From: Paramyrothecium sp. XJ0827 | Lineage: Eukaryota > Ascomycota > Sordariomycetes > Hypocreales > Stachybotryaceae | Assembly: GCA_020881915.1 (NCBI GenBank) | Contig: JAJFPB010000013.1 | Location: forward strand, 744,001 to 808,000 | DNA length: 64,000 nt | Reading direction: 5' to 3' | Shown here: piece after piece, positions 15,010 through 60,174 of the stretch | Layout of the letters: each line of letters starts with the position of its first letter | How positions within the stretch are numbered: position 1 is the stretch's first letter | Notes under the pieces: generated by a model | What the model was told of the DNA's origin: nothing | The model's input: the letters and a program-made list of their open reading frames with translations, nothing else | The model's database searches: none | Made by a program: the position numbers and the translations under genes

Positions 15010-17910
15010 CAGGGTAGGGAATCAATCCATCCACGTCAATATCCGGCTTCGTGGATTGAATTGACGGCTTACTCAGCAGAGTGCTCATGGATTGATGTCC
15101 ACGAGGCTATCTGTGGATTGATGTCCATAATATTGAACTCGTGGAACACCCTTGTCACATTCACTCGGATTTCCTAATCGGGTAATTCATGAACCAATCG
15201 CCGAAACTTCTATTGCCTTATTCCTGGTGCTTCTCCAAACAAGCCCGTCCAACAGCCTCCTCTAACGCTGTATCGTCAAGCAGTATGCTATCAGCATCTT
15301 CGATTATCCCTGCGCGTAACCAAGATCGCAGCGTTTGGATTAGTCCAATGGTCCCAGCGTCTAAGCGGTTTCGGAGGGCGTGACCATCAACCCAGTGGCG
15401 GAGAACAGTCTCTCGCACTCTGAGCTCATCGCCGGCACTGTCATGACGTCGAGAGCCATTCGAGATAGCCTCGGGTACTCAAACCTCTTGAGTATCCAAT
15501 ATTCAACAGGGTCGACGACGTCCCTGTCGCTTCCAGACACATTGGCTTGCCACCGGACGTATTCATCCGCTTGACCAGCGAAGGGCTGACTTTGACGGTA
15601 TCTGTTACGATACCGATCAAAGGATGACAACGTCGTCTTTCGCCTCTTTACAACCGGGCCTTCGGGAGACGTGACAGTGATTTGTAGGTCTCTGTATTCT
15701 GTCTCCCAAAGATGTTGCACGATATCCTTCGCTTCATCGATCCAGCCCGGGTGCTGTTGACCCCAAACCTCGTCGAAGTAGTCCCATCGTAGGCTAGGGT
15801 GTAAGGCAGCCGCGGCGTAGTATACTGGTGAATCCCTCAAAGTATTGTAGTATTTATCGAGCTTCTTCCAGCCAAGGTTGATATTGAAAACAAATTGCTC
15901 CGGCTCGGGATGCCTCTCGACATGCGATTTTGCGTCCTCAAGCTTCCCAAGTAGGAATTCGAAGGCCTCCAGGACATCGGTCATAGAGCCAAAGGTTTCC
16001 CTAACTCCAGACGATCGATATCGCGACTGTCCGTCTCCCTGAAGCACTTGTACAACCACGTGAAAGTCGGAGAGGATCTCATCAAACGTCCTCAGCACCG
16101 CCCAATCGTTCTCGTTGAGGAAGCTGGACTCCTCGAGGCAGGGGAAACTTCCGTCCTGTCTCACCTTTTCGAGCATCTCGGAGTAGTCTCTTGGCTTTGG
16201 CGATGAATTCTTCGTAGAAGGGCTGCAGGCGAAGCATTCGTTTTATCATATAGTACTGGGATAACCATCTAGTATCGTTATCAAGGACAACGTCAACTGG
16301 CTGTTGCTTTCCAACTTGAGGATCATCAGACGCTGCAAATGAGTCTTGCTGCAGTTGACGAAGTAACTGAGTCAGCAAATCGGAGCGATGGACCCAAACG
16401 ACAAAGTTATGTGCTTTTCCGACAGGGCCTTTCCGCATCCACTCGTCATGGGTTGCTCTCGCCAAAGGCTCCCCCTTGACGAGAGATGTCTCAAACGCAT
16501 CAACATCCTTTCCAAAGAGAAGGGATTTAACAACAAGATTAAGGATGTGTCCTATGCATCGAACACGTCGTCGCACCGGATCGAATTTCAGCTCTTCTGC
16601 TATCTCTGCCATGGCAGTTTCATTGTTTGCTGCATTATCGAGAGTGAAGTAACCGACCTTGTCCTCGATGCCAAACGACCTGATGATCTCAAGGATCTCG
16701 GCCGCAATGTTCTCTCCGGTATGCCGTTCTACTAGCTAGCTCTGGAATACCGAGCACGACTTTTGGAGCTGATTCTCGTTGTCCCTGAAGACGGCCGTCA
16801 CGCCATATAGCGCGTGACGATTCCTGGTCCTTGCGCCGTCAAAGGCAATGTGGATCTGACCCGGCGACCTGTTCAAGACCTCTTGCACCGTGCTATGATA
16901 CCGGTCGAATTGTTGAACCGCCAGTCTGTGCACGGTCTTCGCCGTAATGTGCGCGCTCGTAACCTTGATCGCTGGATTGAGGTATTCGAAAATCTGTTGC
17001 AATCGAGGGTGTTCAGCCTGCTTAAACGATTGCTGGCTTTCGACTATCCAGTTGACAATGAGCTTCTGAAACTCTCCTCGATCGAAGCGTTTGATCAAGC
17101 TATTGGCCAGTGCTTGATCCTTTGGATCGGAACGTTTGAGGCCCATGAAGTCCGAAATAGAAGCAAGCACCCTCTTGCCTCCTTTCTTCTGTGACGGTGT
17201 TGATCGTCGTCCTGATGGATCCCAGTAGCCGTGAGCTTTCCAGAGGTGGAGTTCAGCGTTTTGGGTACCTTTGGATTCGTATGACTGCGGTGTGGGGGTA
17301 TTCTGGCGCACACATGGCATACAGATCCATCGTGGGGATGTTTTGGATTGAATCTCAACCCCGTAATTCCATACCCATGACAGAGTATCTTTGTTGCGCT
17401 CGGCCAGCGTGAATTCCTTCCAGACGCGGAAGATCCTCCGCTCCTCATCACTTGTCGGTGCCCAAGTAGAAGGTTGGAGGACTTCGGGGTCCGGATCCAG
17501 AGCAGGCTGAGGGACCTCGGCATGCCGCTCGTTGTTGGTCGGTAGTTTAGGGTCAAGAGGTAAGTCCGCCATCTCGAAATTCAAGGTTCACCAACCGTAC
17601 GAATCGAGTAAATGGAGGAACCTTCGCGTTCGGGCATTATAGCGCGTCACGACGTGTCGAAACGCGCCGGAGGTATTGCCTGATTAGATGTGTTAGTGTT
17701 TGGGTTGAAATACGTAGTAAATATTAACGAAATATATCAAGACATTCCACCCCTGACTAGCGTCCACGTCAATCCACATCTCAATCCACGAGCCCCCATC
17801 AGTGGATGGATGGATTACATAACAACAGGTCTCGTGGATTGACGTGGACGTGGATTGAAGTCAACATATTGATCAATACCGTGGAAGTCGTGGATTGATT
17901 CCCTACCCTG
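15010..17910 (-). mobile_element. hAT-2 copy A (2901 bp)
   Basis: Both ends start CAGGGTAGGGAATCAATCCA when read inward. About 150 bp inside each end is packed with GTGGATTGA/TCAATCCAC repeats, a subterminal array specific to this family. The element is the reverse complement of 57271-60166. I see only a 4-bp CTAG duplication (here at ~16731-16738), one base deletion in the other copy and one substitution between them. No 8-bp direct repeat flanks this copy. Near-identity means the copies separated very recently. Confidence 0.92.
15218..17584 (-). pseudogene. hAT-2 transposase, copy A (frameshifted)
   Basis: From 17584: N-terminal acidic/Pro region, a BED-like zinc finger ('CMPCVRQ' then 'HLWKAHG'), and a core with 'IHIAFDGARTRNRHALYGV'. 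After a shift follow 'GYFTLDNAANNETAMAEI', 'RVRCIGHILNLVV', 'VLDNDTRWLSQYYM', 'NLGWKKLDKYY', and the dimerisation motif 'MSSECERLFSATGL'. Frame breaks lie at the T4 run 16761-16764 (A4 coding; A5 restores), near an AGAG repeat around 16180, and at the CTCC before the C-terminal 'NRLDAGTIGLIQTLRSW'. These three are shared with copy B. Copy A also has a private CTAG duplication near 16735 that shifts the frame. As read, no full transposase can be made, so mobilisation would need a helper or the breaks are sequence errors. Confidence 0.85.
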
Positions 17911-17918
17911 GCTGACGA
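17911..17918. repeat. Displaced half of a hAT-2 target duplication
   Basis: GCTGACGA directly follows copy A. Its reverse complement TCGTCAGC directly follows copy B at 60167-60174. Two flanks of one insertion should match in direct orientation; here they match only if the 17911-57270 segment is turned round. Confidence 0.8.
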
Positions 17919-18061
17919 TATTGTCTTCGAACCGAAGATGCGACGATTGCTTCCAGTTTTTTCGAGTATCTCCAGACCGCAAGGGAGTTTACCGCCGATT
18001 CAGAACGAGCATTTGCCAGAGGTTCTCAACCGACTTCCTTGGATACTGTAACAGCCTTTGA
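17919..18061 (+). pseudogene. Displaced 3' end of the gene at 60175-60625
   Basis: Reading on from the 8-bp duplication, codons stay open through 'SSNRRCDDCFQFFRVSPDR' to a TGA at 18059-18061, in the same phase as the minus-strand frame that runs into copy B at 60167. Joined, the two pieces (283 nt and 143 nt) make a continuous 141-codon frame with no stop at the junction. The family is not recognised. The fragment is believed only because of the matching duplication and phase. Confidence 0.5.
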
Positions 18062-21000
18062 AGTGACATCCAAGATGTTGAGGACCTGTCATATCAGCAC
18101 CCAAACCCTCATAAAAAATAACTACCGGAATTGTGCATACAGGCCCCTGGCTTTGTTAGAGGACTTGTTCTTTCTCGGATATGGTGCAAGGGTAACTGGG
18201 GACCAAGGTGACCAACGGGGTGCGATTCTGGACAATAGGGAAGATTAAAGCTTATTTAAGGAGATGGCCTGGGCAGCAGTTTTTGGGAATTTTCAAAGAA
18301 ATGTATCTGCTCTAAATTGACAGAATGAAAAGTAAGATGGACATGGAACAACAAAAGTCGACTGTATCGCTGACTGTTGTCGCGAAAGTAGTTAATGTAA
18401 CCGTGCGTCTCCCATAACAAAGCCGTCGGATTACGAGTGTCAGGTAAGTGTCAAGTTGCCTCTCCCATGCCGCCACGAATTCACCTATCGTTGAGCTCGA
18501 ATCTCGTGTCGCGCTCTCACCCATTTGCTGTATGCGTTCCGTCCTCCACCTCACGCGCTTTCTGCCCCATACACAGCAACTGTAATGGTTCCGGGGTATG
18601 CAACAGAAAAGCGCCTGGAAACTCTGTTCAGCGCGTCAGAAATTCTCGGAGGATGTGAACGATGCTGCGTATCGTGAGCTACCTGTGTATACATCCTCAA
18701 GGAGATCAATGTTTGGAGGTTAAAATCCTTCCCAGTTGGGCCGGAGTGCTTTGTAAAGGAACATTCCTCATTGCTGCTCCCGTTAATCCTTCGCATTGAC
18801 CCGACCCTGAAAAGCTTATTGCACCTGCATAGAATGAATAAAAGTATGCCCCTATCACCATCAAGGTAGATTGCTGAGTGGTAGGCGAGAGAACCAATAG
18901 GAGCAGAGTCCATACAGCCCTTTCGTCTTGCAGTGAATTGATGGGCAACTTATTCTCGGCTTCATCCAATAATTCCTTGTACCATTTCGTCATAGCCTCA
19001 GCTTTGAAAGCTTAGACTGAGATGGGCAGGGCTAGCAGGAAATGGTGATGACTTTACTGCCTGGTTACTTGGTCCTGGTGAGCACTCCTACATGCTCGAA
19101 GGGAACCGCGCGTCCAGGTCTAGTGCATTGCTGATAAATGGACATTTACAGATGGTCTAGCAAAGCTTTTGAGATTTGTGGCGTACCATGAATATCTTGC
19201 TACTGAATGGAGTAGTTGGCTATCGAGTGATGGGCTGCAAATGCGGCCGTGGGCGAGGTCTAGAACACTCAAGCTTTCGCTGACGGTGAGCTCTAGGGCC
19301 GTACGAATAAGCCTTCTTCATTATTGCACCCAGCGCCAGGCGGAACAGGACAATCCGGCGCCGTGCTCTGATTGACAGTCTCGTCAAATGTCTCCATCAG
19401 CACCTACCCACCCCGCCCCCAAGCTGCCTCACGTTTTTTCCGGTGGTGAGAAGAACAAAGAAAGATAAATCCCCTTACGAAACTTCCCATGGCTTTATGC
19501 TCGAGTGCATGCTCGGCACAGGTGCAGTTTGCAGTATGTACATTCAAAGATCCACCAATGCGGGCCGGATCGACAATACTGACAGACCCATTGAATCAGA
19601 GTGCTATCAGACTTGATCATCTGGAAGGTGTGCGGACAAGAGTTGGCCATGTCGTCTTGTCAAAAGTGCAGGTCAGCATTCATTTACCAATCGTCTGAAC
19701 AATTGCACGGTGCGCAGAAGCTCACAATGGCAGGTAAAATACTTGGGTCGAATTGCGTGAGAAGATGGCTAAGAGTAGACCTTGTCGCCGATATCTAATC
19801 GTCTTTCCTGATGCTCTTCGTTGTGTGGATGGAAGCGTCGTTTCAATCGCAGTAGAAGGCGCAAGAAGAGTTATACCACCTACATTATAAAGGCCGATAG
19901 GAGCCGATCTTGATCTGCGCTCTTGTCAGTACAGCAGTAGAGCCCTAAAGCAGGAAAACTCTCGTCAGGGCAGATAACATCCTTGCACATGCACCGTCAG
20001 TTCCATACCATCGGGGACAGGCAGAGCACATCCTGCCTTGCCGCGCTCCCCACACCCCACCACCATATCGTATGACTGGCATGCATTGATGGTAGGTTCC
20101 TCGGGGTCGTGCTGGTTGCGCGGGTGGGAAGTGTTTCTCTGCCTTTCAGGAGTGGCGCGGGAAAAAGTCATTGAGCGAGCTGACCTGGATCAGGCCACCC
20201 ACCGCTAATTCGGCAACCATGCGCTGGTTACTGTCCGAACTTCCTAATAACGACCACTCTGCTCGTCAGTCAGGGCTCAATTGGCAGTGTGGTCCAGCAT
20301 GCTGCGAGAAGAACTCGAGTTCGTACCCCCGTAGAGCTCCTCCCGGTGGCCTATGATCGTACGCTGTTACTGCCATGGGTCCTCCAACGCAAATGTAACA
20401 CGTCGCATGCGGCTAGTCGTCGGAGCGCACTGGCGGTCTTTAGTGCTGCTTGTCCGAAAGATTTGGGTGGGCGTGGCAGACGAAGGGCGTGACTTTTGTA
20501 TACATTGGTTTCCACAAGCCTAGGCTATCGGGTTGTCCGTCAAAACATTGCGCTGTAATGAAATCAGGTGGGATCGATCAAGGGACTGTCTTGCAATGTC
20601 GGTGAAGAATTGGGGCCATGGGCGGCGCTCAGAATAACGGCGACGACCAACGTTCGACACTTTCTAAACGATCGTGGACATCAGATGAATGGTATGGAAG
20701 GCTCAATTCTTGTCAGCCTGTCGGCCTGTTCCTCGATGTTATTATATATAGCGAGTCTTGCGAACCAGAATGCCCAGGCAGCAAGAAAAAACAGGCAACT
20801 AAGCAGGCAGCCAAGTAACGGGTCAACAAATCCTCACAAGTGGGCTCACGACTGCAGATATTCAAAGATTGGGACAACTGCTCCACCCACAAGCTTAGCC
20901 ATCTTTTTTTATTGTCTCTATGCATTTCGACTGATCTCAACCGCACAATGTCCTCACGATAGCCGAGCCCGAAGCTGTCTTTCAACTGCTTCCGGAGCGG

Positions 21001-22886
21001 GGGCCTTTATGGTCTCTGCTTGTGAAGAAACACCGCCCGACCGCATTCTCCCAGTCATGTCGAGCCCCATCACACAACTACGCCTTTGAAAATACGCCTC
21101 CTGAGCAAGTAATGACCAGTCAGATAAGTGTATCAAGCCTATCAGAGTGGGATCATTTGATGACAAGGAAGCCGGGCTGGACATCCGAGTGATCAGGTTT
21201 GGTAATCTTGAGCTGTCGGATGTTTATTTTATTTACTTTTTCTTCCCGTGTTGTCACTGTCGCTTTCCTTCATCCTTGGTCTGGCGCCTGATTTGGAGGA
21301 GCATTCGATTCATCTCGTATAGCGGACACATCAAGAGCGCATGCAGGTTGCAGTTTCATGCGGCAACCCAGTTGACGAGCCGCACGACAGACCGCTTTTA
21401 CAGACCATGGACCCCTGCTACTGCTGCAACGTAACGTGACCAACTTACCTCGTGCGCTTTATCGGGAATAAAAACCTTTGAAGTTTTGCTTTCAACTTGG
21501 AGCACATCGCGCCGCCCACTGTATGAGAAGACAAGGATGTTGTGCTGCGTCCATGTCCCCTTGTCGACCCCAACCCCTGCAAGCCCAGGAGTGTGTCAAG
21601 CTACCCCGCCACCGCAAGCCATGATCACTCCAAACATTGTAAGTGGCTTTTTTGATAACCTTTCGTTTGGGTGGGGCGCGCCGGGGCGGGGGCGGGGGGC
21701 GGGGGGGTGTGTACAATTTATCCTCGTTCACGCTAATGCATGGCCGGGAGGTGGAAAGAAAGCCGCGGAATGCGCGCTAAAGGGGTGTATCTAGTCTTGA
21801 CCCATCTCTTTGGTCCATCGGAACCTGCAGCCACAATCACGCGTACTGCCTAACCCCTGAACATCTCCCAACTGCTGCAAGTGAGACGCCCCCTTTCCCC
21901 GGAAGTCCCACGTTGAACCATTACTTCTAACTATTTGAGGAAGAGGCGTCCAGTAGCGCCGATACCACAATCATCTCAGCCAAAGAAGGAAAATCTCTGA
22001 GGAAGGAAAGAAATGCAGGTATCCTCTGCCGATCTTAGAATAGGTCAATTCACCACATGGTGGTAACTGCGACGACGCGTCATTGCTGATCCTATGGCTC
22101 AATGTCTGGTTCCCTCACTACTACTGGTGGGGAAACCATAGGGACTGGCAAGGATCGTGCCATCGCCGGTCCATGGTCAAGTTCTAAACCGCGAGTCTGA
22201 TGTTTTTGGGAGTACAGGCACGGGGAAACGGAAAGGTGGATGCCGGGGAACGTGCAGCAGTCAGACGAAACCAAATGGACCATCAGTGTCTTGAGTGATT
22301 AGGGGTGTGGGTTTGCTAGATGCGTTTGTTGGCCCCGCTGCCGTTCCAGGCTGTAGAGGAAGAAGAGCATTGAGAGTTGAAGCTCTACCAATGCCCTCCC
22401 TTTCAATTGGGGGACAGGGATTGCGCGACTAGAACCAAAACCGAAGACGCCAATGCAGGCCCGTGGGGGTTGGTGACACTCACATGGGCCAGCTGTTAAG
22501 CGGAGTGTGCATGTGTCGGCTGAACCATGCAAGAGCGCACTTGGTATCACTTTAAAGCGCATGACCTCTGCCCGCTCAAAGGCCATGTCGGCGTCGACCT
22601 CCACGGCTATCGGCTTCTCTTCACTTCGCTCTCAGTTCACACGTCGCTATTCACGTCGCCCTCGTGGCCACTACCGATCTATGCGTCGCACCGGCTTCAG
22701 CGCTTTCTCCTGATCAGCACTGCAGTATATGCAATTGTCCTGATCCACGTTTCGCGATACGGTGGCCATTTGGCGGCCTCTTCCTGCAAGATCTCCAGTC
22801 CTGATAACATCATAACTATCCCAGTATCCATCCTTCATCATCCGCACTCGATACCTCCTCGACTGGATTGAGCATCACACAAAGCG
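18062..22886. other. Gene-poor 4.8 kb, one G-rich tract
   Basis: No gene can be supported. A minus-strand ORF at 18706-18993 ('TKWYKELLDEAENKLPINSL') has plausible composition but no partner exon or known motif. The 22.5-22.9 kb part is the 5' flank of the regulator gene and should hold its promoter. Confidence 0.45.
21672..21707 (+). other. G-quadruplex-prone tract
   Basis: Six G-runs of 4, 4, 5, 6 and 7 bases among short C/CGC spacers lie within 36 bp. This fits the G3+N1-7 quadruplex pattern on the plus strand. No gene start is supported nearby, so a regulatory role is speculative. Confidence 0.7.
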
Positions 22887-24642
22887 ATGACATACCGTTT
22901 AGACACATCCGTCTTGACTGTGGACGCCAACTCCATTCGCATGGTGGACACTGCCGAACCTGCCAATCTCTATAGCATGTGGACTGGTAAATCAACCCCG
23001 GCCGCCAACCTCGTCCGAGCCAAGTACTAATGCCGTAGCGGCAGTCTTTTCCCGCTGCGAAGATTCAGTAGAACAAGGTCGACGCTTAGAAAACCTGAGT
23101 TGGAGACTGTGGCAAAGAGAGCAGCTCATCAAGAACGGGCACAAGCCCGTCGCCACCGCCAATACCATCGACCTCACTTCCGAAGCCACCACGACGTCCC
23201 CTCAGAACATCCCCGTCGATTTTAGATTACAAGAAGTTCCTCAGCTGTCTGGCAGTGTCGAATCACTAGCAGATGACGAAGCCGTCGAGTTCACCTCCAT
23301 CGCCGCACCCCACGAGATCGCTCGACCCAGGATACGCAGACAGGACTCGTCCATGAGCAGTCGCAGCAAGCGTGATCGCCATATCAGCTCCGACAACTTT
23401 GAGAAGATGATCGTGTCCATTATCAAGGACAAGGCTCCCCTTTCCGCACCTACAGACACAGGACCCTCCATGCCTTCACGCAAGGAGGTCGTCATCCCGG
23501 CGCCCACACTCGAGCGTTCCGGTTCTGCCACCACCGATTCGCAATCTCCCTCCAAGGAGTCTGATCAAGCTTCGGAAGTAGACTCGCAGGCTTCTCCCGT
23601 CCTCGTGCCGCGCACCACTGTTGTCCGCGGTTTCTTTCCTTCGCAGGTTCAAGTGTCCCCTGCCAAGTCCCACCATCCCCTCTCTTGGGATGCTTCTATT
23701 TCTCCTGAGCCAGTATCATCACACGCTGCGAAGCCCATCCAGTCTAGGAGGCCAATGTTCGCTCTCACCGCGTCTTGCTCGTCAGACGAGCAAGGGCGCA
23801 GTTTTGACTCTCGCCAACCACCCAGGCCCGTTGCGGTAATGAACCCCACTTTCCAGATTGGTGGCTCTTCGGAAGAGAACAGCTCGTTCAAGAGCCCAGC
23901 CAACCCCGAGAAGATGCAGACGTCATTCAGCAACGATATGACCACTCGTACCATTGAATCTGAGGCTGCTGTCGATTCCGACACCGACTACGTTGACGAG
24001 AGCGCCATTGACGACGATGACACTGAGTGGGAGGATGAGTTTGACGACAGCAGCAAGTCGGGCATGGACGACAAGTTCTTCCAACGCATCGACTCCAAGG
24101 CCAACCTGAAGTCTCGGCCATCTCTCATTACTCTCATGCTTGCACAGAGCACCAACACGAGAAAACCGGGCAACCAGGCCTCCCAGTCGACAGCGGCCCT
24201 CGATCGATCGAGCTCAACTCAAATGCCTCCGACTGGAGTGTCACCAAACGATTCTGATGATGCCCCTCTTATGATGAAGGGTATGCGAAACTCTACACTG
24301 AAGCCCATCATTGAAGCCCCTCGATCGCCAGCCCAGCCTATTGCTGCCTCCTCCAAGCACATCCAAATCCAGGCCGCACTTTCTCCTCGCACCACGCGCA
24401 AGAACATGCTCGCGACCGAACTTACTGAGTCCCTTCGCCGCCACCTTCTGTGGGAGAGACAGCAAAAGTCGTCAACTGCCAATGCTGTTCTCAAGCGCCG
24501 CCACACGTCGCACGATGTAGCCAACCTGAAGCAATTTCCCGAGAAGGCATGCATAAAGCAGAGTGAAGACCTGAACGCCTCAAGCTGGAACCGGTACTTC
24601 AACAAGGACGCTTTCAACGACTACCACACTAAAGGTTGGTAG
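22887..24642 (+). CDS. DUF1752/DUF3295 regulatory protein, 565 aa
   Basis: Exon 1 runs 22887-22986 (starts MTYRLDTSVL). A 58-nt intron at 22987-23044 has a GTAAAT donor, TACTAATG branch and GGCAG acceptor. Exon 2 is 23045-24642. Across the splice the protein reads 'LYSMWTVFSRCEDSVEQGRR' followed by 'LENLSWRLW', the conserved core of DUF1752 (the AreA GATA-like domain also found in the Reg1-type glucose-repression subunit family). A long Ser/Pro-rich disordered region with 'VVRGFFPS' follows. Then comes an acidic block (DDDDTEWEDEFDD) and 'KFFQRIDSKANLKSRPSLIT', the DUF3295 signature, around residues 370-405. The tail contains 'ELTESLRRHLLWERQQK'. Proteins of this build are fungal and thought to act in nutrient-response regulation; the exact partner is not readable here. 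It is intact and single-copy-looking, the best host-gene anchor in the window. Confidence 0.88.
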
Positions 24643-27600
24643 GCTTTCCAGAACTCGTAGTGTTGGGAATGGTCTTTTGTATGCTGTCTATATCAGTTGC
24701 TGTATATGTGTGTAATTGGGAACCTGTATGTGTATATGCTTTATCTTACACGAATGCGCGTACTACTCGTTCATCTCGGCTCGGGCTTCTTTTCACATCA
24801 GAACAGTGACCACCTTAGGCGCATGAGATGAATTAGAGGTTCGAAGAAAGCCTCTTAACTATGAGACCGGCCCTCGAACCATGTACATCGGCTATGTGAT
24901 GCGAGCAGCTGCCGGGTCGTCATATCATCATATATCCGTTCATGGTCGTCTGATGCAGCCTGCGAGCGCATCTCTTTAGGAAGCGTCTCATTCTCCTCGC
25001 GCAGACACTTGTTCATGTCGTGGAGCTCGTTAGCTCGGTGCCAATATGGTTCTCAATCGGCCCCTACGTGAAGGAGTGCGACGTATCGTGATGATATGGT
25101 GCCAGCTCCAACGCCACATCCGGCAAGAATTTCCCTCTGGCCAGTGAATGGGGATAGTATGCTCTTGATGATCACATGCGATCGGGTAGCGGACAAATCG
25201 AAACTGTAATGTAATGTTCAGCTCGAGAGACTTTGGGAAGTTCTACAGCTAATGAAGGACGATCTGCCTTGGTGACATCGAATTAGGGCCACTCATTGGT
25301 CCTATTACCCAACAATGTCAAAGGAGAATGGGGACAGTATGCTCCCTCTGTCTTCCGCGCTCTTGGTGGATTAAATGCGGGCAGCGGACGGGTGGAAGTT
25401 GTAGTTATGATGTGAAGCTCCAGAGCCTCTACGCAGTTCTGCAGGCAACCAAGAACGAGCTACCGCAAGAAAGCTGCTCATTGGTGGAGGCAGCCTTGAC
25501 CGTCCCGTTGAAGAAATTTTAGTCAGAACACTCATCTTTGGAATTGGGAGTATGACGACAGTTTTGCCTGCAGCTGGTGGACAACTTTAAAGGCACTTCA
25601 TGTCTCTCAAACCAATCCGGGAAGAGGAACTCAGCACGGTGACGCATAAACTGAGGGCATCGCCTTTGCAACCTGATACTTGCTCGGCTTTTCAACGGCA
25701 GACGGTGGCATAACGAACCATACCTTTCGACCCTTGTAAAGATGATTCAAGGAATGAAACCCATATTCTGAACATGAATCAGGAAGCCCGCGCCAAAGAT
25801 GGACCCGACTCGTGGACGTAGGGAGTATGAATGCCAGGAATTATAGCCCTGGTACGGTCCAACATGATGCCTTTCAGGAGGTGAATCAAGATTCGCTCGG
25901 GAACACTCGCAAACACCCTCTCTTGCTTTTTCCAGCCAGGTCTATCCGTTTCATATTGAAGGCAATGGATCGCCGCAACGATCTTCTCAACTAGTGGCAT
26001 ACTGCAGATGTCTATCATATGGCTGCCTGCTGTGCTAGCGTGAGCCCTGCAGGGCTGATGGCGGAAACAGATTTTGCTCAGAAAAACCCCTCATGAAGCA
26101 GGGCGTGGATGATGAGGCAGGTCTCTCATGGGCCGTTGGACTCTAAAGGCCCCAAGGGCGCACCAATGCTCAGAATCTCATTGGACCAGGCGCTACCTTG
26201 TCATCCAAATGAGGAAAACCTTAGTGCATGTGCTAGACGTGTTAAGCGACTCGGAGAATTTGCGGCAGCAAGTCGCCGAGGGAATCCGGCATTGGCGCGA
26301 ACAGGTGCTCTGTGCCCAAGCTAGCTCCAGGGATGGGTACCGGGTGCGGTATTCGCTAACCCGTTACGACGTAAGGTGAAGGTGCCCATTGGAGAGAAGG
26401 TGCTCCAGCAAAGCCAAGCGCAAGCCCCTTGGCACAGATGGTCAAGTACAGAGTACTCCGCAAGCACTTGGAAGGGGGGCGCGGGTAGAAATCTGCGCAG
26501 GGTGATGACCACTGTATAACAGGAGGTCGAAGGGTAGGGCACCAATCACTGCGGTGTCTCCCTTGCAGCGTAGCCGCGTTGCGCATCCCGACGCCAGCGA
26601 ACTCCATTGACTGCTAATCTAAGACACAGCAGTACAGATATTGATTTTTGTCGTGACTCCCTTGCATGCGGTGAGATCCAACTCGAAAGCGTAGAAATTC
26701 CCAACACGTTCCACAGACGGGGTCACTGAATTTGCGCACGTGATGAGGGCTAATCGACATTGAGGCTCTTGCTTTTCGCCCCAGGGCCATTGTCGCGCTG
26801 GGCATGTGAATGAGCCATCTTCCCAGCAATGTAGTAAACGATTTTCAAAAGAGCGGCAGTTCCGGTTGGCTCTTGTGGGACCCCAGCTGGGAGGAGACCG
26901 TTCTGCAGCAGGCCCAGCATCGGATGACTGTCGGGCTGTCACTTGCTCCGGGGTTCACCAAATATCAAAGGGTCTCTAAGAATGAATTGGCGCGACTGTT
27001 TTGTCGTCGTACACCTCTCCAGCTAAAGCGGAGGCCATCCATCGATCGGCTGTTCAGGACCCAGAGCTTGCAGCTCACCTTGCAAACGGCGGTGTAAGCC
27101 TGGAGGACTCTGGCAGTTATCGACAAGCAGATGGAGCCGCAGCGTATCAAACAAATTGTAATGGTCACAGTAGTGGACCTGCAAGTATAACACGAAGGGA
27201 TGCTCAATTTTCACTGCCTCCTCCGCCTGCGCTGAACGTCAGAGCGTTGTAGGTCGCGAGAACTTTGTTCATGTCGCTGAGAAGCTCTCCCATACATGGG
27301 CCGTACTAGGGCAGGCGACCGGTAGGGTGAGTTGGGGTCTGGGTATTTCCTGTGCACTGGCCCACAGCAACCTGTCTGCTCTTTGCATTGTTGGCTTGCG
27401 TCGCAAACCAATTCTACAAGGACCAATTAATCGCTGCTGAGAGCCACTCTGATTGACCGAACTTCTTGGGCGGGAACATCAGCGGCATAGTAGTATATGA
27501 GACAGTTGAGAAGCATGTCAGTCACTCTGCCTAGACTTATCATACTCGACTTGCAAATCACAGGTAGTGCACATCATACGTTGTGGCCGGTCACAACGGC

Positions 27601-27719
27601 TTTGTTGTGTCATCTGGCGGAAACTTGCGTATCCCCTTGGCTGTGCGAAGGTGCAGGCCATGTATTGGACATGGATCTGCACCAATTAGAACGGGGAAAA
27701 AGATAGGTACTTCTATTTA
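24643..27719. other. Gene-poor stretch between regulator gene and piggyBac
   Basis: The first ~150 bp should contain the 3' untranslated region of the regulator gene. A sequence 'GAATGGGGA(T/C)AGTATGCTC' occurs twice (about 25145-25163 and 25326-25344) followed by related text, a hint of a degenerate ~180-bp tandem duplication. Otherwise only short ORFs. Confidence 0.4.
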
Positions 27720-29782
27720 CTAGTAATTCTGCCTATGATAAAAGTACCAGCACTCATCCTTGTTACAGAGGGCTACATCGCAATGGCTGCAACGCCATGG
27801 GGTAAAAGTACCCTTTGGCCGCTGCCGGGCCCGGGAATTGAGGGCATCACCATGTAGCTGTTCAAGGGGGCCACGGGCACGGCGTTTTCGCTGCCGTTGA
27901 GATGACTGTGACCGAGGGCCAATTTGAACGCCCAGACAGGCCAAGCAACGGGCCCTTTTGCTTGTTTTGACACGGTTATGCATGTGGAAGGTCGTAATTT
28001 CGTCCCCAGCACGAAAACGCTGTCTTGAAGTCCATGTCTTGCCATATGTCTCAAAAATTTCATTAACTAGGGCCTCAAGGAAGCGGCTTTGGGCCACATA
28101 TGGCTGCCAACTTGGCTGTCCTAGCCGTTGCAATAGGAAGCTGTTCGATAGGGCTATATTAAGGAGGAAATTCCACAATGCCTGGCCCGGCCCACGGCGT
28201 TGACGGTGGTTGCTGGCGATATTGGCCCTTAAATGGTCACCAATGTCTACGCCATTCATATTGTCGTTGTATTTGGCCGCGATGGATGGTATTGTAAGCT
28301 CTAGTTGGCCGTTTGGACCAAATTTTCGCTTAATAGGGCCACTATACGGCTGTTGTGTTGTCGGGCGGCGTCGGATACGTTCGACAGTCTCGGTGCCTTC
28401 GTAAACGGTTGATAATAGCAAGACGAGGGCGTTATCTTTCCAGGCTATTTGATTGACCTTTAGGAGTCGTTAGCAGCTAGAAAATGTGTCCTTGATGTCT
28501 TTGAGTGCTATACTGACCTTGCCATCGTCTGTGGGCCATGACTCGAGCCGGCCCCAGTCCCATAGCTGTTGTCCGGCTCGATCCTTTGCTTTGAGGTCCA
28601 CGAGACGCTTGTACAGCCCACAGTTGGTACGCGCCGTCCCTGTGGCCCCGTGGCCAAGGGCCCTTAGGGCCCGGAAGAGGTGGGGAGACGAGAAAAGGTT
28701 GTCTAGGAAGACATGGTGGCCCGGGGCCTCGAGACGGCGACAGAGGGCATAGACAACGCCTTGGGTTGGGTTCAGGGCCACCTCTTCGTTGTCTACATCC
28801 GGGTTCCTCCAGAATTGCTGCTCAATGCCAATAGGCCCGAATTTGGCACCTGGAGAGTGCCATATCCACTGTAATATATATCCTAGGGCGCCTAGCAGCC
28901 AGACCTTGAGCCCTGTGTCCGTCGGTTTCGTCTTTATCGTCAATTTATGCCTTGACCGTCCTTCAAACATAACCATACCTTCATCAACGGCGACAAAGGT
29001 GCCCACGTTGACGGCAGTTATAGCTGCTTCCATAATGACGTTGGCCCAGTCATTGACCTTGCAATAGGGGCCGGCACGCCCGAGTGTATTGACGAGCGGT
29101 CAAAGACACAGAGACGCCTTTTAATAAGGAAAAACCGGTCAAAAGTCATGAATTTAATGATTGGATGGTTAGGGATATATCTGTCGGGCCCTGGGGCCCT
29201 CCAGAAGTCCTCCAACCTGTATTCCATGTGGGAAACCATATATATCCAAACTCCTATCCATATCCATAGCTCGGCCGCTGATGTTGCTATCCAATGATTT
29301 TGACGAGCCCCTTCATTGGCTGGGGCGTTGGCCGGGTTATTCGTATAGTCAGCCCACTGTTGGACAAGGGATTCGGGTAGGAATAGCTGGAATAGCTTCA
29401 ATGGCGTTGGCGGCAGCGTTTTGACGACGAAATCGCGCTCGGGGACATCCATTGCTTCAAAATGCGTCCCTGGACGCGTTGTGGGCTCGAAATTCGGCCT
29501 GTATGTGGCATCAGCAGCTTGTTCTCGCGTTGCATGGTCTGTCTGAACAGGAAGGCGTTCTCCGGCGGCTACAGTAGCAGCGGCAGCTTCTTCTGGGGCC
29601 TCCATTGCCCAGCCAGCTGCGACGGCGTTGTCGACGATGTGGGCAGCAGAAAAAACGGATACATAGCAAGTTAGCTGTATGGCGATTTTCTTGTTGCTCG
29701 ATGTACTGACGCGTTGACAGGGGTGGTGTGGGGGGCGGGACCTTGGCTGCACCTTCGCACAGCCAAGGGGATAGGAGGTCAT
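27720..29782 (-). pseudogene. piggyBac transposase (one apparent frameshift)
   Basis: DDE_Tnp_1_7 family. Domain order: N-terminal segment with 'LFLPESLVQQWADYTN' and 'WIWIGVWIYMVSHMEYRLED'; catalytic Asp in 'FVAVDEGMVMFEGRSRHKL'; second Asp in 'HHVFLDNLFSSPHLF'; third in 'YNDNMNGVDIGDHLRANI'; and a C-terminal Cys/His-rich block 'CSHCDVALCNKDECWYFYH' matching the piggyBac cysteine-rich end-binding domain. A 60-nt intron at 28458-28517 (GTCAGT donor, GCTAAC branch, AAAG acceptor) joins 'DGK' to 'VNQIAWKDNALVLLLSTVYE'. One break at GG 29098-29099 (one extra C on the coding strand would give 'VFDPLVNTLGRAG' in frame) separates the first part from the catalytic part. All three catalytic Asp are present. 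The likely start is an internal Met ('MEAPEEAAAAT') rather than 29782. Confidence 0.88.
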
Positions 29783-29837
29783 TCCTCGCTCAGTCAGGAG
29801 CCGCTCATTCCTGTCTCGGGTTAACGTCTCGGGTTAA
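27720..29837 (-). mobile_element. piggyBac-type DNA transposon (one end seen)
   Basis: Defined by its transposase. Beyond the transposase start, 29813-29837 reads GTCTCGGGTTAACGTCTCGGGTTAA, a 13-bp unit twice, ending in TTAA, the piggyBac target. This is a credible terminus. I could not find the matching CCCGAGAC-type terminus with TTAA on the left side between 27200 and 27720, so the left boundary given is only the transposase stop. Confidence 0.65.
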
Positions 29838-31170
29838 CCGTGGTGCCAACAACTCCTTGGTTTTCCCGCACGGCTAGGGGCGAAGGGGTCAGTAAACCAC
29901 AGACATGGCGAGTACAAGAAGTAGATGCCTTTTGATTACCATAGAAGGTTATTCAGGCTCCCATGTGGGGAACTGCAAACGTAGCCCACATCGCGATCCT
30001 GCCATGGTCCGCCAAGTTTTTTTTCTACACGAGGGGAGTTTGTCAAGGTCAGTTGACTGAGAAGACGGATGAAACCATTGCCAACTATACTTTTAGAGTA
30101 ATTTTTATGAGGTCGCAGACGCCATGTCGCAAGGCCACAGGCCACGAAACACAGGCTGTTCCATATCCAATCTGCAAACACGGCGTCAATGAGGAGTGGG
30201 CGCTGGGCCTATCCGTGAGCAATCAGTCCAGTCGCGCGACACGGCGTGGTTCGATCAATCTTCTCGGGATCACTCGTTTCCAGAAAGGGGGACTTGCAAA
30301 AGCAAGGGAGAATTTTTCTTCATGATTTGTTCCTCGATGAGCAGCTGCATATGGATCGATGTGTTACAGCGCTTTAGCAGACTATCCAGGCTTATCAAAC
30401 AAAATCGTTACCAGGTAGATCAAACAAGTCTTTGCGCCAAGTTAGATCAATGATTTTCCTTCTATTCTACAATGCTTTATTGCTCGCCCTGAGCTAACTT
30501 AATTGACCCCTTTTCCTCTGATTCATCCCTTTGGCTTGAAGAAAACTACCAATGGCTCTACAAGGATCGTGCCAATAGTCTTGGAACGATTCTGCGCGGA
30601 ACATAGAGCTTACTATTACTGTATGAAGACCAAGTAATTTTCTGACCTTAAGTGCTTCACGCTAGCGATATTTTGTCGGATATCTCGATGGGTCTTGTCG
30701 AAAGCACAGAAGAGCATCACGCCGCTATTGCTGAATCCCACCCACACTCTTGTGCCTGGTTGAGATGGTGGGGGTTTTTAGGGGACGACAGGTTGATACC
30801 GGTAACAGGCTGCCAAGACTTGCTAATACCAATCTTGAGGCCTCCGCCAAGGACGTGACAGGTGAAGAATGCACATTTGTGCTAGTGCCAGCGGTGGACC
30901 GTCTCTTGAATAGGGCAGCTCACCTCGAGTGGCTCCGTCCCCGTGCAGTAGCGCGTTCAGCATTCCACTTTCTGTTGGCCTTCGGGGCTAGGAAGTGAAC
31001 ATTAAACATGTTCCGCCACTCCTTTACCGTACATTGACCATGTCTCTAAGAGACCTACCTATTCGGTCGGGGACGGCTCTTATTAGTCCCCTAGCGCTGC
31101 AAGTGGATGGAGCTTCGCGGTGTGAATGTTTTGGTGCCCCGAAAACTATCACAAGCACCAATATAGGCGG
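29838..31170. other. Intergenic, nothing recognised
   Basis: Only short ORFs, with no domain or repeat that I can support. Confidence 0.45.
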
Positions 31171-31404
31171 TTCACATACTTCACATACGCGCCAATATTG
31201 CGGATGTTTAATCACTCATGCTATTGATTACTCTTACGACCTTGACGTCATGGCCGGAGCGGTTGGTTTCTGGCGTCCGGCTTCTCCACTCGATGCTCGA
31301 CTGTGAGAGCATCGTGGCGATCGGGATTAAATTAGCGACCCAGTCTTGAAGCCAAGTTCAATTTGGCACTTAGCGTCAAATCAAGGGCGCGATAATCCAC
31401 TCCA
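31171..31404 (+). repeat. Dispersed direct repeat, copy 1
   Basis: 31180-31316 and 31319-31404 align in the same orientation to 49525-49663 and 49848-49934. Shared blocks include ATATTGCGGATGTTTAA, TATTGATTACTCT, ATGGCCGGAGCGG, GGCGTCCGGCTT, GACCCAGTCTT and AAGTTCAATTT-like text. Copy 2 has about 185 extra bases between the two blocks. The origin is unknown; no terminal repeats or coding capacity were seen. Confidence 0.75.
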
Positions 31405-31784
31405 ACACATCCCCATGATTGCCTATCTGCTAGGCAAGACACTGAAAACGAGTCCTTAAGATATTTACTCCCGCGCGAATCTTAGATGAGGCAGAAAAAA
31501 CGCTCTTTACAAATAAGCAGTGAAGTGCATGGAAAATACAACGCCGGAAGCGGAGAATGCATCATAAGTACTCAGACATGGAGGCCTGGAGAAAGTTTCT
31601 CCTTGCGTGTTATTTTCAACCTTTTCATCAGGAAATCGGGGCGTGGACCCTGCTTATTTGTTGCCTTGAGGGCTCTTCTATATGATCTTCATTAGTGTAA
31701 CTACCAGTATTAGTCTTTCATGATAAATTATCATACCTGCGCCTCAAATTTCCCTTGATAGTATCCCACTGGGCCACACTGAAT
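31405..31784. other. 5' flank of the PARP gene
   Basis: No ORF of note. It presumably contains the PARP promoter and leader. TATATGATC-like AT-rich text lies near 31678-31740. Confidence 0.35.
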
Positions 31785-54140: not shown

Positions 54141-55534
54141 CCTTGGAACCAACATGGTTTTTGGCACGCCAAGCTAACCGAGTGAAGGGGCATTGAAACG
54201 AAAACCAAAAACCCTAGAAATGCTGTGTGGAGTCGTGGGAGATTTTTGTGTTTGGACCGTCGGGAGTCACAGTCTAGTACATAAGTAAGCGCCAGTAAAG
54301 ACATGCTCTACTACGCCGCTTCGCATATAAAGCACTAGAAAGTACAGTGCTCGGGTGTCTGTTTTTTGCCAAAGATCACCGCAGGTATTGGAGGGATCGA
54401 GGCCTTGTGTTGCTATGTATATGAGGAACAAGCAATAATCAACATGGAACGCAACATACGTGAGACTCTGGATAGTGCCTTCGTCGATGCCACCATTTCC
54501 CTCTTCTTGTAGCGCATGGTACAGTATCGGGAGGCGGCGAGGACCAGGACGTGGAACCTGTGGCCACGTAAAGGTTGGGTATACTATGCGCCGTCATCGA
54601 GACAAAACCATTTTTCACGTGCCAAAGGCCACAGGCACTCCAATGGCTCACAGGCTTCAGTCTTGTGACTAGTATCGGTACTATTCTTCGTCGAAAGTGA
54701 AACTAAGAGGTATAGAGTCACACTGGGTAATAAACGATGTTATACCCACAGATCCACTCGCAGGACCTCCAGGTCCAATCATACTATAAATGAATCATGG
54801 TGCGGGTACCGGTACTAGTGCCGCGAGTCTACCGCACCTTCGCCGCGATGCTGCTGTCAAGGCTTGTTGTGCTGGGCTACATCCGGTCTAGCTTGTTCGG
54901 CTTGGCGGCAAATACAAGCTAGGCATCAAATAGCTCAAATAAAAACGAGGCTTTAGGACCTACCCATAGAAAAGGGATTCCATTACAAAGCTTGCGGCTT
55001 GACCACTTTTTATGCTTTGTTATCTCAATTCACGGGCTTGGCTCGCAATGTCCTAAAGGCGGCTTGGCTCGGCTTGAGATGTGTTGGAGCATGCCAAGCC
55101 ATCACGTCCTCATTCCGGAGCTCCCAGCAAGCGGGGCCGTCAAAATGACTTGAGCATTGTGCACGACCGGTACGACCCCCGACCCCTACTGACGGTGGAA
55201 TCTTGAAGGCGCTTGACTAGATATCTTGCTGTAAATGCTCTTGCTTGACAATGTATTGGCTTTCTCCTGGGGAGAGATTCCAAATCGGAAGGTGGCAGGG
55301 GGAGTAGATTTGTACAGCCAAGTCAGCCGCGAAAAGTCCTACTGAGACTGGCTTTGAAATCTCTGCGCAGTAGCCCTCTCATTTTTAACTTCTGTCTTCA
55401 GCCAACTGTCGATAATTCCAAAAATACACGCCCCTTGTTATCGGTCGGAGGCTATTTAACACTGCACAAATACCCCAGTATGTGCGGCCAATTTCTTGTG
55501 CTCAGACCTCTCCCCAGTCCTTCCCTCGGTGAAG
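54141..55534. other. Spacer between BRCT paralogues
   Basis: No gene supported. From 54885 to 55095 the motif GGCTTGGCTCG/AGCTTG(T)TCGGCTTGG recurs four or five times, suggesting a degenerate short repeat or remnant of a non-autonomous element; its ends cannot be defined. Confidence 0.4.
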
Positions 55535-57270
55535 ATGTCGAATAAATCGTCAATTGGACCCTGGGCCAGGAGTCGTGACTGGAACTCCCTACTTGAGTTA
55601 AACGCTCGATTTCTGCAAAGAAGACACAAGCTGCCAGACGTGCAGGGAGAGTTTTTTTTTTCGTCCTATGGTGATATAGAATCTCTCAAAGAATCCGAGT
55701 TCAATCAGTTACTCCAGCTCCAGTCCTTTGGCATCTTCATCTTGGCTTACACGCCTCCGCGAATCGAACGTCAATCACACAAGAAAACAAGATTCCATCC
55801 ATGCCTCGAATTCTTGATTCAGCATTCGCCAACACATACAACCCTAACCCACCCCTTGCAGAAGGCTTTAAGACAATTAATACTTCCCGTAGGATACAAA
55901 TTAAGTGTTTGCCAGGAAATAGAAGATGAATCCCCGACAGGAGAACTCATTACGTATAAGGAGCCTATTATGGCTTCACAGCTTTCCGAATCCATCAACC
56001 AGTGGCTTCCTACAGAATTCCCAACTCTTACGTTCCGCTTGCGCACCCATATTCCCGACGTTGTGATGCAATCGGTAACCGATGAAGCATACTTGTTATT
56101 ATTTCAGAATCGGGAGAACGATCTACTCAGTATGGTGGCGGACTGCGCAACGAAGCTCGGCATGAAAGGAAAAGCTCCAATGCCACGTGTTCTGGAATTA
56201 CCTCGAATTGATGCAGGAAAGGGCTCTTGGGATGGCTGTGAAACTTGGCAAGACCTGGTTATCATGAACGAGAAGTGTATGAGAGCATGCCACCTCGGAC
56301 AATCGTGCTCATCGCCATGGGGAAAGCGTTCAACGGAGGATTTCGTTCATCTCACACAGAAGGATTTCCACAATTTGTTCACCCTTCAAAGTTACGGTTT
56401 TCTCATAATGAGATGTAGCGAGCCTTTTACTGCCCAGATGATGCGCTCATGGGCTTATATCCAGTTCCTGTTCCAAGATGAGACGGCGGAGAATCACATC
56501 GGTAAAATGCATCCATTCATCCACAATCTGGTGAGGGATGGAATGCTGAAAGTCAGAGTTGTTAATTACAATGGATTGTATTACTCTTCCAACGGGCAAC
56601 GAGAGTTGGTGTATGGTATGTGTATTGACGGTGGGGATTGGAAGCCCTTGCCGGATAAGTGCTGGGATGGGCAATCTCCCGAGAGCTATGCTCTTGACCA
56701 TATCCCTATAATTGGTCGCAAACCTTTATATCTTGTTGCAGTAGCCTTGAAAGTCTCGAAATGTGAGTTTGAGGAACTACACAACGAAGATTTTATGACC
56801 CTCGCCAGCCAAGCCCGTCTTGTCGGGCGCATTGCATACCATGCCCAAGCCGCGAACATGCATCAGAAATACGGCACTGAGTTCACAACTGCTCTCACAC
56901 GGCATCACGAGTCTCTAGCTACTGAGCATCACGACATTCGTGTAGCTATTGATGGAGATTTTGCGCCTTACAAGGATGCCGAACTAAGAAATTACATTGA
57001 GCAACTGGGCTGGTCGTACTGCGGCGATGAACCGACGCATAAGCCGACGCATATACTTTGTTCTGACCCGATGAATACCACGGACCTTACAGAGTACGCC
57101 AAGAAGTCCGGTAAGCCGCTCATGAAGTTAACGTGGCTCCTCGATTCAACAAATCAACCACGACCTCTGGAGCCAGAGAACTACATCTGGTATGACAACC
57201 TAGTCGGTTTCCAGGACTACATGCACAGCTTAGGACTTACCAGTCTACGGTCTATACGGGGCCGCCCAAC
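55535..57270 (+). pseudogene. Duplicated-domain + BRCT protein, paralogue 2 (truncated by hAT-2)
   Basis: Tandem paralogue of the gene at 51670, same strand and order. The ATG at 55535 (MSNKSSIGPW) is preferred over the upstream 55496 because it matches the start context of paralogue 1. Unit 1: 'DWNSLLELNARFLQRRHK', 'LLQLQSFGIFILAYTPPR'. Unit 2: 'TWQDLVIMNEKC', 'LFTLQSYGFLIMRCSEP', 'YIQFLFQDE', 'HPFIHNLVRDGML'. BRCT: 'IRVAIDGDF', 'PTHILCSDP', 'KLTWLLDS', then 'LEPENYIWYDNLVGFQDYMH'. No internal stop or frameshift over 578 codons. At 57271 the frame runs into the hAT-2 terminus and ends at a chance stop at 57382. By comparison with paralogue 1 about 280 C-terminal residues are missing, and they are not found beyond either hAT-2 copy. 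Confidence 0.75.
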
Positions 57271-60166
57271 CAGGGTAGGGAATCAATCCACGACTTCCAC
57301 GGTATTGATCAATATGTTGACTTCAATCCACGTCCACGTCAATCCACGAGACCTGTTGTTATGTAATCCATCCATCCACTGATGGGGGCTCGTGGATTGA
57401 GATGTGGATTGACGTGGACGCTAGTCAGGGGTGGAATGTCTTGATATATTTCGTTAATATTTACTACGTATTTCAACCCAAACACTAACACATCTAATCA
57501 GGCAATACCTCCGGCGCGTTTCGACACGTCGTGACGCGCTATAATGCCCGAACGCGAAGGTTCCTCCATTTACTCGATTCGTACGGTTGGTGAACCTTGA
57601 ATTTCGAGATGGCGGACTTACCTCTTGACCCTAAACTACCGACCAACAACGAGCGGCATGCCGAGGTCCCTCAGCCTGCTCTGGATCCGGACCCCGAAGT
57701 CCTCCAACCTTCTACTTGGGCACCGACAAGTGATGAGGAGCGGAGGATCTTCCGCGTCTGGAAGGAATTCACGCTGGCCGAGCGCAACAAAGATACTCTG
57801 TCATGGGTATGGAATTACGGGGTTGAGATTCAATCCAAAACATCCCGACGATGGATCTGTATGCCATGTGTGCGCCAGAATACCCCCACACCGCAGTCAT
57901 ACGAATCCAAAGGTACCCAAAACGCTGAACTCCACCTCTGGAAAGCTCACGGCTACTGGGATCCATCAGGACGACGATCAACACCGTCACAGAAGAAAGG
58001 AGGCAAGAGGGTGCTTGCTTCTATTTCGGACTTCATGGGCCTCAAACGTTCCGATCCAAAGGATCAAGCACTGGCCAATAGCTTGATCAAACGCTTCGAT
58101 CGAGGAGAGTTTCAGAAGCTCATTGTCAACTGGATAGTCGAAAGCCAGCAATCGTTTAAGCAGGCTGAACACCCTCGATTGCAACAGATTTTCGAATACC
58201 TCAATCCAGCGATCAAGGTTACGAGCGCGCACATTACGGCGAAGACCGTGCACAGACTGGCGGTTCAACAATTCGACCGGTATCATAGCACGGTGCAAGA
58301 GGTCTTGAACAGGTCGCCGGGTCAGATCCACATTGCCTTTGACGGCGCAAGGACCAGGAATCGTCACGCGCTATATGGCGTGACGGCCGTCTTCAGGGAC
58401 AACGAGAATCAGCTCCAAAAGTCGTGCTCGGTATTCCAGAGCTAGTAGAACGGCATACCGGAGAGAACATTGCGGCCGAGATCCTTGAGATCATCAGGTC
58501 GTTTGGCATCGAGGACAAGGTCGGTTACTTCACTCTCGATAATGCAGCAAACAATGAAACTGCCATGGCAGAGATAGCAGAAGAGCTGAAATTCGATCCG
58601 GTGCGACGACGTGTTCGATGCATAGGACACATCCTTAATCTTGTTGTTAAATCCCTTCTCTTTGGAAAGGATGTTGATGCGTTTGAGACATCTCTCGTCA
58701 AGGGGGAGCCTTTGGCGAGAGCAACCCATGACGAGTGGATGCGGAAAGGCCCTGTCGGAAAAGCACATAACTTTGTCGTTTGGGTCCATCGCTCCGATTT
58801 GCTGACTCAGTTACTTCGTCAACTGCAGCAAGACTCATTTGCAGCGTCTGATGATCCTCAAGTTGGAAAGCAACAGCCAGTTGACGTTGTCCTTGATAAC
58901 GATACTAGATGGTTATCCCAGTACTATATGATAAAACGAATGCTTCGCCTGCAGCCCTTCTACGAAGAATTCATCGCCAAAGCCAAGAGACTACTCCGAG
59001 ATGCTCGAAAAGGTGAGACAGGACGGAAGTTTCCCCTGCCTCGAGGAGTCCAGCTTCCTCAACGAGAACGATTGGGCGGTGCTGAGGACGTTTGATGAGA
59101 TCCTCTCCGACTTTCACGTGGTTGTACAAGTGCTTCAGGGAGACGGACAGTCGCGATATCGATCGTCTGGAGTTAGGGAAACCTTTGGCTCTATGACCGA
59201 TGTCCTGGAGGCCTTCGAATTCCTACTTGGGAAGCTTGAGGACGCAAAATCGCATGTCGAGAGGCATCCCGAGCCGGAGCAATTTGTTTTCAATATCAAC
59301 CTTGGCTGGAAGAAGCTCGATAAATACTACAATACTTTGAGGGATTCACCAGTATACTACGCCGCGGCTGCCTTACACCCTAGCCTACGATGGGACTACT
59401 TCGACGAGGTTTGGGGTCAACAGCACCCGGGCTGGATCGATGAAGCGAAGGATATCGTGCAACATCTTTGGGAGACAGAATACAGAGACCTACAAATCAC
59501 TGTCACGTCTCCCGAAGGCCCGGTTGTAAAGAGGCGAAAGACGACGTTGTCATCCTTTGATCGGTATCGTAACAGATACCGTCAAAGTCAGCCCTTCGCT
59601 GGTCAAGCGGATGAATACGTCCGGTGGCAAGCCAATGTGTCTGGAAGCGACAGGGACGTCGTCGACCCGTTGAATATTGGATACTCAAGAGGTTTGAGTA
59701 CCCGAGGCTATCTCGAATGGCTCTCGACGTCATGACAGTGCCGGCGATGAGCTCAGAGTGCGAGAGACTGTTCTCCGCCACTGGGTTGATGGTCACGCCC
59801 TCCGAAACCGCTTAGACGCTGGGACCATTGGACTAATCCAAACGCTGCGATCTTGGTTACGCGCAGGGATAATCGAAGATGCTGATAGCATACTGCTTGA
59901 CGATACAGCGTTAGAGGAGGCTGTTGGACGGGCTTGTTTGGAGAAGCACCAGGAATAAGGCAATAGAAGTTTCGGCGATTGGTTCATGAATTACCCGATT
60001 AGGAAATCCGAGTGAATGTGACAAGGGTGTTCCACGAGTTCAATATTATGGACATCAATCCACAGATAGCCTCGTGGACATCAATCCATGAGCACTCTGC
60101 TGAGTAAGCCGTCAATTCAATCCACGAAGCCGGATATTGACGTGGATGGATTGATTCCCTACCCTG
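57271..60166 (+). mobile_element. hAT-2 copy B (2896 bp)
   Basis: Starts CAGGGTAGGGAATCAATCCA and ends with its inverse, carrying the same GTGGATTGA subterminal arrays as copy A and lying in the opposite orientation. Differences seen from copy A: lack of a 4-bp CTAG (near 58441), one C or T missing at 59667 within GTCGACCCGTTG, and one C/G change at 57847 (Pro/Arg in the zinc-finger region). Left flank CGCCCAAC and right flank TCGTCAGC do not match; the right flank matches the inverse of copy A's right flank. Confidence 0.93.
57597..59958 (+). pseudogene. hAT-2 transposase, copy B (frameshifted)
   Basis: Same domain order as copy A (BED-like finger, 'FTLDNAANNET', 'DNDTRWLSQYY', 'MSSECERLFSATG', C-terminal 'NRLDAGTIGLIQTLRSW'). 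Shared breaks: A4 run 58417-58420 (A5 would read 'QLQKVVLGIPELVE'), the AGAG repeat near 58985-58990, and TCC at 59801-59803 (TCCC would continue into 'RNRLDAG'). Private break: one base missing at ~59667, which shifts the frame before 'EYWILKRFEYPRLSRMAL'. Unlike copy A, the segment 'LVERHTGENIAAEILEIIRS' remains in frame with what follows. Confidence 0.85.
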
Positions 60167-60174
60167 TCGTCAGC
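60167..60174. repeat. hAT-2 target duplication, partner of 17911-17918
   Basis: TCGTCAGC, the exact reverse complement of the eight bases after copy A. Confidence 0.8.

Follow-up and report, generated by a model that had tools for sequence, protein, structure and literature searches.

A 39-kb inversion between two inverted hAT-2 copies in a fungal genome and its possible origin by reversed-ends transposition

Results

A 39-kb block lies between two inverted hAT-2 copies

The window is the whole 64,000-bp stretch of DNA that was analyzed and corresponds to C4:744001-808000, part of a transposon-rich contig in a genome assembly of 51.8 Mb and 15 contigs. Positions without a contig name are those of the window. 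The present order is left flank, hAT-2 copy A, inverted block, copy B, right flank. Copy A (15010-17910, minus strand) is a complete element of 2,901 bp with the ends CAGGGTAGGG and CCCTACCCTG. Copy B (57271-60166, plus strand) is 2,896 bp long with both ends complete. The transposase frame is interrupted in both copies. The preliminary description of this DNA called them near-identical and inverted, and this was borne out: they lie on opposite strands and are 99.8% identical, one substitution and two indels (4 and 1 bp) being the only differences.

The block between the copies (17911-57270, 39,360 bp) contains DUF3295, PARP-domain and BRCT genes. The PARP and BRCT domains reported earlier were confirmed. 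A gene also exists near 22.9 kb, where a regulator had been proposed, but it encodes a DUF3295 protein (23353-24642). The BRCT-domain reading frame (55496-57270, plus strand) is cut off at copy B.

hAT-2 is a Restless-like hAT element

Short terminal inverted repeats (CAGGGTAGGGAATCAATCCA) occur at both ends of copies A and B, and a hAT dimerization domain (Dimer_Tnp_hAT, PF05699, E 4.3e-13) was detected in 15364-16242 of copy A. Homologues of the transposase carry the names AC or restless-like transposase, and those named are from fungi, for example Clonostachys, Purpureocillium and Fusarium. The 8-bp target duplication, the terminal inverted repeats and a transposase with a C-terminal dimerization domain identify hAT-2 as a Restless-like hAT element; it shares the transposase naming and the 8-bp duplications with the Restless-like hAT elements of hypocrealean fungi.

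A genome search found at least 23 full-length copies, at least one copy without the first 101 bp, at least one 5' fragment and at least six internally deleted copies of ~1 kb each, all of these counts being lower bounds. The outer 26 bp at each end are identical in 23/23 full-length copies, and the near-identity of the 23 suggests recent hAT-2 activity. A perfect 8-bp target duplication flanks 12/23 full-length copies, and the other 11 lack a perfect one. Among six short derivatives outside the 23, the duplication is perfect in four, off by one base in one and absent from one. Copies A and B differ at 1/24 informative columns, a closeness found in only 4/253 copy pairs, and they are sister copies. 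A low-power test detected no clear chimerism in either. Both carry one haplotype, so a crossover between the sisters would leave no visible trace.

One target duplication is split between the copies

Each copy has one flank that is matched at the other copy and one that is not. The sequence GCTGACGA at 17911-17918 and TCGTCAGC at 60167-60174 (both read on the plus strand) are the two halves of a target duplication, t. They are exact reverse complements, as the preliminary description had stated. Flank x on the outer side of copy A (CTTTCCAC, 15002-15009, plus strand) has no match at copy B, and flank y on the inner side of copy B (CGCCCAAC, 57263-57270, plus strand) has no match at copy A. Read in the orientation of the element, copy A has TCGTCAGC at its 5' end and GTGGAAAG at its 3' end; copy B has CGCCCAAC at its 5' end and TCGTCAGC at its 3' end. 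One of the two A/B flank pairs thus matches, and it is the 5'/3' pair. The x and y flanks agree at only 2/8 positions in the orientation that matters.

Comparison of the 13 x 13 unmatched hAT-2 flanks gave three exact 5'-versus-3' matches, against ~0.003 expected. These are A/B, a second inverted pair (L019/L012) and the two halves of one hAT-2 insertion on C2 (L024/L031). Chance is negligible as a source of the A/B match.

Paralogues of the breakpoints

Turning 17911-57270 round joins the reverse complement of the sequence starting at 17919 to position 60167. On C10, an open frame of gene size (L042) spans this rejoined t site with 181/218 aligned columns identical. The gene fragment at 60174-60329 (minus strand) is 85% identical to C10:2637690-2637845, and the fragment at 17919-17971 (minus strand) directly adjoins the 60167 side on C10. 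At the predicted place on C10, the 80 bp from the 17919 side alone reach a score of 56, compared with a maximum of 28 in 2,000 shuffles. By this homology the t site was once contiguous. The 141-codon frame that had been noted across the join is indeed open. The C10 alignment has a 1-bp gap on each side of the junction, however, which marks the sequence as a decayed gene fragment, so the in-phase continuation is not the ancestral one, and the case for the t junction lies in the DNA homology to C10 and not in the open frame.

The x and y sites have a paralogue on C2. The sequence at 13510-15009 matches C2:2056156-2057658 (minus strand, 95%) and the sequence at 55500-57270 matches C2:2052047-2053817 (plus strand, 99%). 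Both matches end exactly at the hAT-2 ends (15009 and 57270). The two breakpoints lie 2,338 bp apart on C2, in the order expected before an inversion and without hAT-2. The 2,338-bp piece between them is absent from the C4 junction, and on C2 the BRCT frame runs on into it without a stop for a further 247 codons. Divergence between C2 and C4 around x and y is ~0.4-9%, varying by stretch, and exceeds that between A and B; C2 can therefore probably serve as the pre-insertion state. In the searched part of the block (17911-32000), the C2 match begins at 29771. No full second copy of 17911-29770 was found among the 39 of 133 candidates that were scored.

If the assembly is taken as it stands, 17911-57270 is inverted on C4, 2,338 bp are absent between x and y, and each junction has one complete hAT-2. 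The inversion proposed in the preliminary description is supported by two independent paralogues, the t site on C10 and the x/y sites on C2. The former adjacency of the 17911 and 60167 flanks was checked through these paralogues within the same genome, and the outcome was favorable.

An assembler could have flipped the block between the near-identical inverted repeats. Its true orientation would then be the opposite one, copy B would be an ordinary insertion flanked on either side by TCGTCAGC, as turning the block restores, and copy A would be the remnant of a 2.3-kb deletion. This reading is improbable. The assembly has only 15 contigs for 51.8 Mb and resolves 23 full-length hAT-2 copies with variants of their own, 12 of them with perfect duplications, and three further inverted pairs, from three families, also have half-shared duplications. 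We hold with high confidence that the inversion is real and not an assembly flip.

Mechanism of the inversion

The preliminary description had ascribed the arrangement to ectopic recombination of one hAT-2 insertion with a second, inverted one. The copies are inverted and one duplication is exchanged, which speaks for a simple event of this kind, and the inversion itself stands. The single crossover does not, because the x and y flanks are unmatched (2/8 positions) and the 2,338 bp that separate them on C2 are gone. A simple ectopic event would be expected to swap both duplications, yet just one was swapped, so either one reversed-ends transposition or two recombinations among three insertions are needed. 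The one-step event was rejected as insufficient on these two grounds and is very improbable.

The alternative requiring a single event is reversed-ends transposition. Turning the block back would place A and B in direct orientation. The event would start from two sister hAT-2 copies with like orientation, one inserted at x (15002-15009) and the other 2.3 kb away at y (57263-57270). The transposase would pair the 5' end of A with the 3' end of B, which faced each other, and the segment between them would be cut out and then lost. Joining of these two ends to a new target, t, ~39 kb away would turn round the DNA from y to t. Fill-in at t would create an 8-bp duplication with its halves split, one beside A at its 5' end, the other beside B at its 3' end, and x and y would remain unpaired. 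One such event from two direct copies yields exactly the arrangement observed on C4. This route is favored because one new duplication is split exactly at the element ends and the inter-element piece is lost, and we consider it slightly better than an even chance that the A/B inversion arose in this way. The interrupted frames of A and B mean that the transposase would have come from another copy, unless splicing joins the frames.

The 2,338-bp piece was also sought elsewhere in the genome as a reinserted circle, and only the C2 site and a 281-bp fragment on C4 were found. The fragment (4094-4374) is 96% identical to part of the missing piece and lies ~10.6 kb outside copy A.

Two steps of homologous recombination among hAT-2 copies at x, y and t could give the same result. 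First, the copies at x and y, lying in direct orientation, would cross over, deleting 2.3 kb and leaving one copy flanked by x and y. That copy would then cross with an inverted copy at t and turn the block. Two insertions and one event suffice for reversed-ends transposition, compared with three sister insertions and two events for recombination. Deletions of the first kind would leave single copies with unmatched flanks, and such copies are numerous on C2 and C4. The hAT-2 duplications are intact in 4/13 copies on these two contigs compared with 8/10 on the other contigs; unmatched copies are accordingly commoner there (9/13 versus 2/10, p = 0.036). Variants among hAT-2 copies are mosaic, as recombination would make them, equally in copies with and without a target duplication, but A and B themselves lack clear chimerism. 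As a low-power test for crossover among the copies, the mosaic pattern was set aside since duplication status made no difference. With unpaired copies already present, half-shared duplications are expected in ~0.58 (hAT-2) or ~0.71 (TE-4, a second DNA transposon described below) of visible inversions made by homologous recombination. The probability that all three pairs of DNA elements are half-shared is ~0.24 under recombination at the present share of unmatched copies. The hAT-2, TE-4 and LTR copies that were read include no fully exchanged inverted pair, which speaks against recombination. We regard the two-step route as a serious possibility with a likelihood well short of even.

Inverted pairs of hAT-2, TE-4 and Ty1/copia elements

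The second hAT-2 inverted pair, L019/L012 (C2:325421-328320 and 334294-337191), shares one duplication, TCTCGAAT. Its rejoined t site aligns at 83% to a paralogue at C2:401010-401328. These copies are also sisters, differing at 2/24 informative columns, and 11/253 pairs are as close. Both x and y of this pair fall within multi-copy repeats, so a deletion could not be shown.

TE-4 is a DNA transposon of ~5.2 kb whose core is integrase-like (rva_4/rve, Clr5) and whose target duplication is 6 bp long. Both ends were read at 10/11 places, and the place at C2:210 kb was dropped for having no recognizable ends. Among the 10 copies, four duplications are intact and six unmatched. An inverted pair at C2:1147-1152 kb and 1198-1204 kb shares TTCACT, the only cross match among TE-4 flanks, and does not share the other duplication. 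TE-4 was rejected as a clean control, with 6/10 copies unmatched and one pair half-shared.

Nine full-length Ty1/copia elements chosen from 40 LTR matches served as the LTR control, which omits an element at C2:262-267 kb with an unrecognized 5' LTR and a pair of solo LTRs whose flanks are intact and identical. The duplication is intact in 5/9 elements, or 4/9 by a strict 5-bp rule that the fifth case fails (C2:1689 kb, a 6-bp match). Intact duplications flank 16/33 DNA elements and 5/9 LTR elements (p = 1.0); on C2 and C4 only, the counts are 7/22 and 4/6 (p = 0.17). Target duplications are thus lost about as often in LTR elements as in DNA transposons, which counts against reversed-ends transposition.

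The two solo LTRs, at C4:612013-612123 and C2:361629-361739, have identical flanks (ACTCT), which indicates a segmental duplication linking the two contigs.

The LTR control also contains a half-shared pair. Inverted Ty1/copia elements at C4:83950-89588 and C4:138439-144278 share GTTTG and not the other duplication. A retroelement such as Ty1/copia is incapable of alternative transposition, and the pair demonstrates that a half-shared duplication may arise without it. The half-shared duplication was therefore discarded as proof of alternative transposition. Each copy has LTRs of two subfamilies, in complementary order. This difference between the two LTRs of a copy points to recombination or conversion after insertion, and the pair possibly marks a ~49-kb inversion through recombination. 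Repeat recombination is thus visible on C4 itself, as the two-step route would have it, and recombination among repeats is clearly ongoing in this genome. The pair is not a clean reciprocal crossover, however. Identity to a reference element at five sampled 120-bp points per copy is alike in both copies and not complementary, and the type of integrase match does not differ between them. By our estimate, the unmatched LTR flanks would yield a 5-bp match by chance with a probability of ~1-2%. The pair was accordingly rejected as clean proof of homologous crossover, its interiors not being complementary and its 5-bp match being weaker than an 8-bp one. The lack of complementarity shifted our assessment slightly, raising reversed-ends transposition from an even chance to marginally above it and lowering two-step recombination, already the less probable route, by a still smaller step.

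Comparison with known systems

Rearranged, transposon-rich fungal contigs are usually ascribed to recombination between repeats. Alternative transposition is already known for hAT elements in maize, and the same source cites non-standard transposition of impala in Fusarium (PMC8225341). The maize Ac reversed-ends inversions outlined there start from direct repeats, have 8-bp repeats at their junctions, lose the inter-transposon segment and leave one element within the inversion. Ectopic recombination, by contrast, is described in the same account as creating no new duplication and swapping the inner ones. The A/B arrangement resembles the Ac/fAc inversions at maize p1/p2, as given in that account, in involving a hAT element, a split 8-bp duplication, loss of a segment and one element inside the inversion. 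The inverted block is ~81 kb in the maize case and 39 kb in the fungus. The progenitor allele is known at p1/p2, whereas the fungal progenitor is reconstructed from paralogues of one assembly (PMC8225341, as above).

The Galileo inversion 2z3 of Drosophila buzzatii arose by ectopic recombination according to the relevant part of PMC2775673. It resembles A/B in having one element per junction, opposite orientations and an exchanged duplication. In 2z3, as described there, the exchange affects both duplications and each copy is chimeric, whereas A and B have one exchanged duplication and no clear chimerism. Set against these two systems, A/B fits the marks of reversed-ends transposition and misses one mark of ectopic recombination, the exchange of both duplications.

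The nearest fungal parallel is impala in Fusarium oxysporum, for which PMC8225341, in a brief mention, cites aberrant transposition (Hua-Van et al. 2002). It likewise concerns non-standard transposition in a filamentous fungus, but impala belongs to another superfamily (Tc1-mariner). A full-text search of one collection with our chosen wording returned no reversed-ends inversion by a fungal hAT element, judged by title or abstract.

If reversed-ends transposition is the true origin of the A/B inversion, the added value of this case is that the prior order can be read within the same genome. With the pre-event order kept in paralogues, mechanisms with different intermediates would be separable using few related strains. 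A genome-wide tally of unmatched and half-matched duplications would be a cheap measure of the contribution of each mechanism.

Other rearrangements on C2 and C4

Two hAT-2 sequences on C2, L024 (C2:277052-279851) and L031 (C2:804853-804968), are halves of one insertion that lie 525 kb apart and share the target duplication TACAGAGG. Each half adjoins a 3,055-bp MULE, and the two MULEs (C2:279854-282908 and 801798-804852) are in direct orientation. Their outer ends have a common 9-bp duplication, ATCCACTGA, inside hAT-2, and their inner flanks are unlike. The 525-kb stretch is either a giant macrotransposition or a circle excised and reintegrated by recombination. A broader reading, in which two hAT-2 inversions and one TE-4 inversion arose by reversed-ends transposition and the 525-kb stretch by macrotransposition, would have several DNA transposon families directly rearranging C2 and C4 by alternative transposition; we consider it unlikely.

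Two further elements lie within the inverted block. An element with a transposase IS4 domain (DDE_Tnp_1_7), which we take to be piggyBac-like, occupies 27630-29774, and C2 has six near-identical copies of it. The block duplicated between C2 and C4 begins at the right edge of this element. PARP regulatory and catalytic domains lie at 31755-37152 with a hAT transposase fragment between them. This Dimer_Tnp_hAT fragment is at 33341-34138 on the minus strand, and the PARP gene looks as if it had been split by another hAT element.
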